Source: an uncultured bacterium (GTDB taxonomy: Bacteria; Cyanobacteriota; Vampirovibrionia; Gastranaerophilales; Gastranaerophilaceae). Taken from it: 64,000 nt of DNA. Positions 35,046-53,198 of this stretch are shown one piece after another. Numbering within the stretch: position 1 is the stretch's first letter; every line of letters starts with the position of its first letter. The stretch is taken from assembly GCA_902783835.1 (NCBI GenBank), contig CACZSN010000014.1, positions 1 through 64,000 of the forward strand, given 5' to 3'. The position numbers and the translations under genes were made by a program. The notes beneath the pieces are model-generated. The model was not told where the DNA came from. It saw only the letters and a program-made list of their open reading frames with translations, and did no database searches.

Positions 35046-35116
35046 CGATACCTGACTGACTGATTTATTTTAACCTCGTAATTTCGATAATCAATAAAGA
35101 AATGCGAGGTTATTTT

Positions 35117-35383
35117 ATGCAGGTAAAAATTTACACTTTACGTTATTGTCCGTTTTGCAAAAAGGCAAAAAGCATTTTGCGAGAGAAAAACGTCAGTTTT
35201 GATGAAATTGACGTAACTGACAATGAGGATAATTTTTCTAATTTATTAGCGGAAAAATACAACATAAAAGGAGAAGTAACATTTCCGCAAATCATTATCA
35301 ACGGCAATCGAATCGGAGGTTGCTCGGATTTAGAAAAACTTATTGAAACAAAAAAATTTGACGAACTATTAAAAGAGGAATAA
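35117..35383 (+). CDS. Glutaredoxin
   Basis: An 88-aa dithiol glutaredoxin (GrxC type). CPFC is the redox site, followed by the TFPQIIINGNRIGGCSDL segment with the cis-Pro and GG glutathione-binding motif. It reduces disulfides or mixed disulfides in the cytoplasm. The frame is open from 35102, but the ATG at 35117 has a GCGAGG ribosome site and starts at the first beta strand. The next gene, a hybrid-cluster-protein-like gene, starts 2 bp after its stop, so the two are coupled. Confidence 0.92.
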   Translation: MQVKIYTLRYCPFCKKAKSILREKNVSFDEIDVTDNEDNFSNLLAEKYNIKGEVTFPQIIINGNRIGGCSDLEKLIETKKFDELLKEE

Positions 35384-35385
35384 AA

Positions 35386-36990
35386 ATGGGACTATTTTTT
35401 AACTATGACAACCCTGTTTGTAACGAGGGTGCAACCCCCGTTGTTTTTTCTTATGATCCGTCGATAATTTCTCTCAAAGAACTTCTGTTTTATGAATTGA
35501 GCCAAATGGCTTATTATGAAGAAAAAATGAGAGCTATCGGTTGTGATACGGGAAAAATTGCGGACTTAATAATAAACTATGTCAATCTGACAGTCGTTAA
35601 TCTTGATTTTCAAAAAGATGTATTTTTGAACATCATCAAAAATCTTTACGACGAAGTTCAAAAACTCACATTAACATACAAAGAAGAATGCAAACTTAAA
35701 AACGAACCTTTTGAACCGGTTGAAGGCGAAAAGTTGTCTTTTGAAACCAAAAGTGAAGGCATTCAAGCACTAAAATTCGGTGAAAAACAATCAGTAAAAA
35801 AGAATACAACAATTTCTAAATTCAAAAAAACAGCTACCGATATTGCAGTTTTGCTTATCAGTAACGCTTGTCTTTGTATTACGGAAATAGAAAACTACGA
35901 AGAGGAAATCGGTGATGAAAAATTCAAAATTCCCGAACTTTTAAAAACTCTTAACTACGATAATTTAACGGAAAAAGAACTTAAAGAAAAAATTTATGAT
36001 TTTGCAAAAACAAATCGCGAAATTATGACAAAATTAAACAAAATAATTGCAAAAAAATACGGTCCGATTGAAGAAACAGATGTAAAATTGGATATCAAAA
36101 AAGGGAAATGTATTCTTGTTACCGGACATTATTACAAGAACTTAGAAATGTTGCTTGACGCACTCAAAGATGAAGACATTAATGTTTACACTCACAATGA
36201 CATGCTTTTTGCACATTCATTTTCCTATTTTCACAAATATAAAAATTTAGCGGGACATTACCAACGTTCACTGAACAATGTTCAACTCGATTTTGCGTCT
36301 TTTCCCGGAGCGGTACTAATTACAAAAAATTCTCATTTTCACTTTGATTTTATAAGAGGAAGAGTTTTCACCCCCGATAACAATCCTGCTTACGGCATCG
36401 GCAAAATCAGCGAAAAGGATTTTTCACCGCTGATTGAAGCTGCAAAAAAAGAAAAAGGATTCACAAAAAATCTTCCAATCGGAGAAATCACAGTCGGTTA
36501 CGACAAAAATTTCATAGACAGAAAAATTAACATAATAACGGAATGCTTCGACTGCGGAACATATAAACATTTAATAATTATTGGTACAAATAACTACAAT
36601 GTTCCGCAAACGGAATATTTCGAAAAACTATTCGATATTGTACCGGATGATTGTTTTATAATTTCATTTTCTTACAACAGAAAACAGAAAAATATTTGGC
36701 ATATAGGCTCTTTTTACGACATGTCTCTGATTTACGGTGTTTTCGATAAACTTAAAGAACATAAAAATATTTTACAGGAAAAAACCACGGCATTTATTAC
36801 ACAATGTCACTTGCAAACTATATCGCATGCTTTTAACCTGAAAATATTAGGAATTAAAAATATTTATTTGAGTGAATGTTGTCCTAATGTCTTAAATCCG
36901 TCAATTTTCGACGGAATGAAGGATATTTTCAATATCAAAAAAATCAGTAATTCCCCCGAAACAGACCTGAATGAAATTCTCTCAAAATAA
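35386..36990 (+). CDS. Degenerate hybrid-cluster-protein (Hcp) homologue
   Basis: This 534-aa protein aligns along its length with hybrid cluster protein (class I NO/hydroxylamine reductase). Landmarks include GKCILVTGHYYKNLEMLLDAL, INVYTHNDMLFAHSFSYF, FPGAVLITKNS, DFSPLIEAAKK and VPDDCFI. Compared with E. coli Hcp as I remember it, almost all cluster ligands are gone. His248 is kept, and the Glu is Asp272. The cysteines become Ser316, Asn402, Tyr (in SFSYNRK) and Phe (in IGSFYDM), and the later Glu becomes His. The N-terminal CxxC cluster motif is missing too. It probably binds no hybrid cluster. Role unknown; its coupling to glutaredoxin suggests a thiol or nitrosative-stress link. Confidence 0.85.
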   Translation: MGLFFNYDNPVCNEGATPVVFSYDPSIISLKELLFYELSQMAYYEEKMRAIGCDTGKIADLIINYVNLTVVNLDFQKDVFLNIIKNLYDEVQKLTLTYKEECKLKNEPFEPVEGEKLSFETKSEGIQALKFGEKQSVKKNTTISKFKKTATDIAVLLISNACLCITEIENYEEEIGDEKFKIPELLKTLNYDNLTEKELKEKIYDFAKTNREIMTKLNKIIAKKYGPIEETDVKLDIKKGKCILVTGHYYKNLEMLLDALKDEDINVYTHNDMLFAHSFSYFHKYKNLAGHYQRSLNNVQLDFASFPGAVLITKNSHFHFDFIRGRVFTPDNNPAYGIGKISEKDFSPLIEAAKKEKGFTKNLPIGEITVGYDKNFIDRKINIITECFDCGTYKHLIIIGTNNYNVPQTEYFEKLFDIVPDDCFIISFSYNRKQKNIWHIGSFYDMSLIYGVFDKLKEHKNILQEKTTAFITQCHLQTISHAFNLKILGIKNIYLSECCPNVLNPSIFDGMKDIFNIKKISNSPETDLNEILSK

Positions 36991-52997: not shown

Positions 52998-53198
52998 ATG
53001 GCAAAAGTTACAAAAGAAATGAGCATTATCGATATCGTACAAAACCACCCCGAAACTCTTGAAGTATTTGCAAAATACGGCATGGGCTGTATCGGATGTG
53101 CAGCAGCAAGATTTGAAAATCTTGAAGCAGGTGCAAAAGTTCACGGATTTGACGCAGATGCAATGGTAGCAGAAATCAACGCACTTATCGGTGAATAA
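52998..53198 (+). CDS. DUF1858 small redox-disulfide protein
   Basis: A 66-aa protein with the DUF1858 fold. MSIIDIVQNHPETLEVFAKYG is followed by a CIGC motif and a helix. Members are described as hybrid-cluster-protein-associated redox disulfide domains, so it may pass electrons or thiols to an Hcp-type protein. The frame is open from 52971, but ATG 52998 has an AGAGGACG ribosome site. A clear terminator at 53220-53250 closes this single-gene unit. Confidence 0.9.
   Translation: MAKVTKEMSIIDIVQNHPETLEVFAKYGMGCIGCAAARFENLEAGAKVHGFDADAMVAEINALIGE

Follow-up and report, generated by a model that had tools for sequence, protein, structure and literature searches.

The window, a stretch of 64,000 nucleotides from an uncultured bacterium of the family Gastranaerophilaceae, carries on its forward strand a gene pair in which a glutaredoxin precedes a homologue of the hybrid cluster protein (Hcp). 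The role of Hcp, a widespread metalloenzyme, has been disputed for three decades (PMC10210160). The glutaredoxin (35117-35383, +; 88 aa) has a CPFC active site and matches PF00462 (E 1.2e-18; 67.5 bits against a cut-off of 22.9). The Hcp homologue (35386-36990, +) is an intact 534-aa ORF with an ATG start, separated from the glutaredoxin stop codon by 2 bp, as the initial annotation had described in calling it an intact gene of normal length. To judge from the spacing, the two genes are probably co-transcribed. Upstream, a perfect 8-bp inverted repeat at 35071-35112 (TAACCTCG ... CGAGGTTA, 26-nt loop) ends 4 bp 5' of the glutaredoxin ATG, with a T-rich stretch after it. It may be an attenuator or else a terminator for the upstream TPR gene.

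The same genome contains a second Hcp gene, on contig C6, which is canonical and retains all ligands. The DUF1858 gene mentioned earlier for this window lies at 52998-53198 (+), 16 kb from the Hcp paralogue. It belongs to TIGR03980 (85.7 bits, GCIGC motif), a family of redox-disulfide proteins named for their association with Hcp, and no other copy was found in the genome. Unlike the partner gene it is not a glutaredoxin and is not adjacent to the paralogue.

An Hcp homologue without the Hcp ligands

The whole-length likeness to Hcp that had first been read from the protein was borne out by profile searches and by its predicted structure. The window protein matches Pfam Prismane (PF03063, E 1.2e-26), NCBIfam TIGR01703 (E 1.5e-58 across residues 22-532) and, in the PDB, E. 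coli Hcp (7de4, E 7e-30). Its TIGR01703 score is 198.7 bits, whereas the equivalog cut-off lies roughly twice as high, at 360.8. An AlphaFold2 model built from 32 paralogues (mean pLDDT 86, pTM 0.88) was compared with solved structures using Foldseek. Hcps ranked first (8cnr, 1e1d, 1gn9, 1e2u, 7de4; E 1e-26 to 1e-23, TM-score 0.73-0.77, with 0.77 for D. vulgaris Hcp). Ni,Fe-CO dehydrogenases, members of the same Prismane/CODH superfamily, came after these with a TM-score of about 0.46; they are much more distant in sequence and their match is not whole-length. By sequence and by model, the window protein is a true Hcp homologue over its whole length, with a predicted Hcp fold. With class I/II Hcps (hydroxylamine reductase, TIGR01703; PDB 1e2u, 7de4, 8cnr) it shares the predicted three-domain architecture and the conserved GH/YTH/FPG core motifs, but it differs from them in its metal ligands, in a shorter loop ahead of the Cys459 position, in new cysteines at 102, 474 and 498, and in having a glutaredoxin partner.

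Ligands were mapped in a MAFFT alignment of the window protein with 25 canonical Hcps. Only one of the seven hybrid-cluster ligands is kept (His244, here H248). The others, encoded like H248 within 36127-36810, are replaced: Glu268 by D272, Cys312 by S316, Cys406 by N402, Cys434 by Y430, Cys459 by F443 and Glu494 by H475. The Cys459-F443 column is uncertain because Hcp has about 12 more residues in the preceding loop; there is no cysteine between residues 424 and 473 of the window protein. None of the four N-terminal [4Fe-4S] cysteines aligns with a cysteine (region 35392-35448; now L3, N6, G15 and F21). These results agree with the initial annotation, which had listed the same replacements, kept His248 as the sole surviving ligand and found the N-terminal CxxC motif gone. 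It had also proposed looking for shifted Cys or Glu residues with a profile alignment; in an alignment to PDB chains, the C-terminal ligand positions were placed as in the MAFFT map.

Among 132 paralogues, 95 keep none of the seven hybrid-cluster ligands, 24 keep one, 11 two and 2 three. Two of the four N-terminal cluster cysteines persist in most of them, and position 475, the Glu494 column, is Asp in 91 of the 132.

Distribution, phylogeny and selection

Of the 170 Gastranaerophilaceae genomes covered by a phylum-wide search with a paralogue profile, about 166 gave a match (counts read off the results table and approximate). Among the matches listed by place, E was at most 1e-133 in roughly 145 genomes of the family, and the best match outside the order was about 4e-88. 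A locus search with the single window protein matched two records of the same genus and no others. Canonical Hcp was found in 68 of 163 genomes of the family (42%).

In a set of 157 sequences, made up of the 25 canonical Hcps with all seven ligands and the 132 paralogues, the 127 Gastranaerophilaceae paralogues formed one clade (SH-aLRT 100). A mixture model run on 33 sequences recovered the same clade (bootstrap/SH-aLRT 100/100). In that tree the paralogues of two sister families (f6 and f7) share one branch with it (100/100), inside the canonical Hcps of the order, and the exact attachment of this branch is poorly supported (85/64). The sister-family proteins are less stripped of ligands than the main clade. 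Two of these (L051, L056) keep two N-terminal cysteines, Glu268 and Cys312, and another two (L047, L055) keep Cys406 and Cys434. A further sister-family paralogue (L035, 803-2446, -) has all four N-terminal cluster cysteines intact and three of the seven hybrid-cluster ligands (Glu268, Cys312, Cys406); its protein possibly holds a [4Fe-4S] cluster only.

Missing ligands are by themselves compatible with a decaying Hcp duplicate or an alignment artefact, and a few relatives have one stop codon within the matched stretch. However, the frames are open and full-length in nearly all genomes, several core positions are invariant in 35 of 35 sequences, and separate alignments agree. The dN/dS ratio, a measurement the initial annotation had recommended, was low in 27 close paralogue pairs with dS of 0.05-2 (median 0.073, maximum 0.15) and similar to that of canonical Hcp (0.10). 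The paralogue is therefore a functional protein under strong purifying selection, as its description as a maintained Hcp homologue had implied. The pseudogene reading is refuted, and decay or artefact is extremely improbable as an account of the family.

The family also varies in copy number and length. Tandem paralogues lie head to tail, three in L033 (3620-8482, G015:C145) and two in L034 (429-3685, G019:C41); one copy in the array of three has lost both N-terminal cysteines. Short forms of about 474-487 aa occur in a few genera (L036, L050, L069, L139, L140). They keep C474 and C498, have no adjoining glutaredoxin and apparently have a reduced third domain.

Another reading is a pseudoenzyme that has no chemistry of its own, acts as a scaffold or regulator of canonical Hcp or another partner, and uses its cysteines as a redox switch. 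The catalytic ligands are absent, and the sequence evolves fast, with a median pairwise identity of 33% versus 68% for canonical Hcp within the same family. However, the paralogue is nearly universal, and 58% of the good genomes in the family have no canonical Hcp. The latter therefore cannot be the partner of the paralogue in general. Regulation of canonical Hcp as a general role was ruled out on these counts, which weakens the regulator that had been suggested at first. A scaffold or regulator of any kind is an improbable reading.

Conserved cysteines and the glutaredoxin partner

Five cysteines are conserved across the 127 Gastranaerophilaceae paralogues: the third and fourth of the old N-terminal cluster positions (115 and 116 members), C102 (35689-35691; 117), C474 (36805-36807; 123) and C498 (123), the last encoded with C499 at 36877-36882. 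All five are present in 102 of the 127. In the 25 canonical Hcps, position 474 is never Cys (Tyr, once Phe), position 498 is never Cys (Thr, Ser or Asn) and position 102 is Cys once. Judging by the alignment, C102, C474 and C498 are new in the paralogue family. In the profile alignment the D. vulgaris Hcp residues at these places are Tyr493 for C474, the immediate neighbour of the hybrid-cluster ligand Glu494, and Thr517 for C498. In the AlphaFold2 model C474 and C498 each lie just past one of two consecutive beta strands (467-471 and 492-495) linked by one helix. The window's own subclade has lost the two N-terminal cysteines and gained C12 (35419-35421; 8 of 8 members) and C499 (7 of 8), both of them confined to this subclade. 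Gastranaerophilaceae thus possess a near-universal, lineage-specific family in which the Hcp ligands are gone and a new set of conserved cysteines is found instead.

Four sequences lack C474 or C498, and each lacks both, through three independent events on the tree. With three events a sign test (p 0.25) cannot reach significance. The replacements at 474 and 498 are Gly and Phe (twice), Ser and Trp, and Phe and Arg; the small-plus-bulky swaps, which are complementary in size, suggest that the two residues are in contact.

The coupling to glutaredoxin noted at the outset extends well beyond the window. A same-strand glutaredoxin lies directly upstream of the paralogue at 81 of 127 loci (median gap 7 bp) versus none of 25 canonical hcp genes, and 41 of the 127 loci have no adjacent glutaredoxin. 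Adjacent glutaredoxins are mostly of the dithiol CPYC/CPFC type, 13 being CPYS. They fall into two deeply separate subfamilies (1.46 changes per site between them, split support 100, from few alignment columns), so the linkage arose, or the partner was swapped, at least twice. Both subfamilies have further members away from the paralogue in other genomes. The window's partner resembles the glutaredoxin 3 type (TIGR02181, 85.0 bits, slightly under the 90-bit cut-off) but is paired with the Hcp paralogue; in most of the clade another subfamily takes this place. Part of the linkage is inherited and not independent, given that neighbourhoods are conserved across genera. Other conserved neighbours include ribosomal protein genes on the downstream side and an epimerase-like gene on the upstream side; these were taken as a matter of position only, as the pair is also found in other contexts.

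Glutaredoxins were sought in some 30 genomes of the family; in about half of these the glutaredoxin adjoins the paralogue, and most of the genomes carry just one or two in total. The window's genome (92% complete) has a single PF00462 match, the glutaredoxin of the pair. Genes of the GCS2 and GshB types lie about 0.3 kb from each other in this genome, so glutathione synthesis is probable. An adjacent dithiol glutaredoxin accompanies about 67 of the 121 sequences that have both C474 and C498 but none of the four that lack them (Fisher p 0.04, kinship ignored). Only one of the four has an adjacent glutaredoxin (L016, G012; glutaredoxin L129, 1046-1309), and the active site of that glutaredoxin is CPYS, not CPYC.

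A proposed change from metal to thiol chemistry

The loss of ligands, the new cysteines in the pocket and the usual upstream glutaredoxin suggest that thiol chemistry took the place of metal chemistry. The proposed explanation, to which we give a probability of roughly one in two, is that a redox dithiol took the place of the metal centre in a duplicated Hcp and is reduced by its glutaredoxin. An Hcp gene would have been duplicated within the order Gastranaerophilales, and the duplicate would have shed its iron-sulfur centres stepwise to become a separate, near-universal protein of Gastranaerophilaceae. If close enough to each other, C474 and C498 would pair as a dithiol/disulfide in the pocket where the hybrid cluster once sat, and the glutaredoxin of the same transcript would reduce them with glutathione. 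Thiols instead of a metal cluster may then serve the protein for a redox step, or for a binding step under redox control. By analogy with Hcp, a first guess at the substrate would be some small, reactive species of nitrogen or sulfur. A centre of two cysteines leaves unexplained the conservation of the third and fourth N-terminal positions in about 90% of members.

These extra cysteines lead to the strongest rival of the thiol model, a re-ligated metalloprotein. The two surviving N-terminal cysteines, C474 and C498 would form a new four-Cys site ([4Fe-4S], [2Fe-2S] or Zn) at the former N-terminal-cluster interface, loaded or protected by the glutaredoxin. The joint presence of all five conserved cysteines in most members is in line with this. 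In the C67Y variant of Mm HCP, which has lost the N-terminal cluster, the loops at Glu434 (equivalent to Glu494) and Trp461 shift; the N-terminal cluster region therefore packs against the Glu494 loop and the one about 27 residues further (PMC10502027). The first corresponds to the loop of C474 and the second to that of C498, about four residues off. The window's subclade gained C12 and C499 as it lost the N-terminal pair, so its number of cysteines stayed constant. However, the two pairs are also lost separately: L032 and L137 keep the N-terminal pair without C474 and C498, and L033_5242 and the window's subclade do the reverse. In both AlphaFold2 models, the second of a member that keeps its N-terminal cysteines, the prediction is poor over roughly the first 20 residues and gives no hint that they pack. 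CPYC glutaredoxins are chiefly disulfide reductases, which also speaks against this reading. A re-ligated site is thus a possible but rather unlikely explanation.

The initial annotation had proposed a cluster-free pseudoenzyme. The Hcp cluster ligands are indeed gone, but both terms exceed the evidence, as the five conserved cysteines may be thiols or a metal site. No precedent was found in the open-licence literature for an Hcp lacking its ligands, for one paired with a glutaredoxin, for such a family, or for anything joining Hcp with Gastranaerophilales, and NCBIfam and Pfam hold no curated family for the paralogue beneath Prismane. The full picture consistent with the thiol model, which we put forward more tentatively than the model itself, is that one bacterial family swapped a complex metal cluster for a pair of cysteines in the same pocket, that a dedicated glutaredoxin supplies the electrons, and that sister families preserve partly stripped intermediates.

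In Gastranaerophilaceae, which are gut bacteria, the ligand-less Hcp scaffold is kept in more genomes than the canonical enzyme. The family would show how a complex metal cluster is shed by a redox enzyme, should thiols have taken over, or how a metal site is rebuilt, should a new one have formed.
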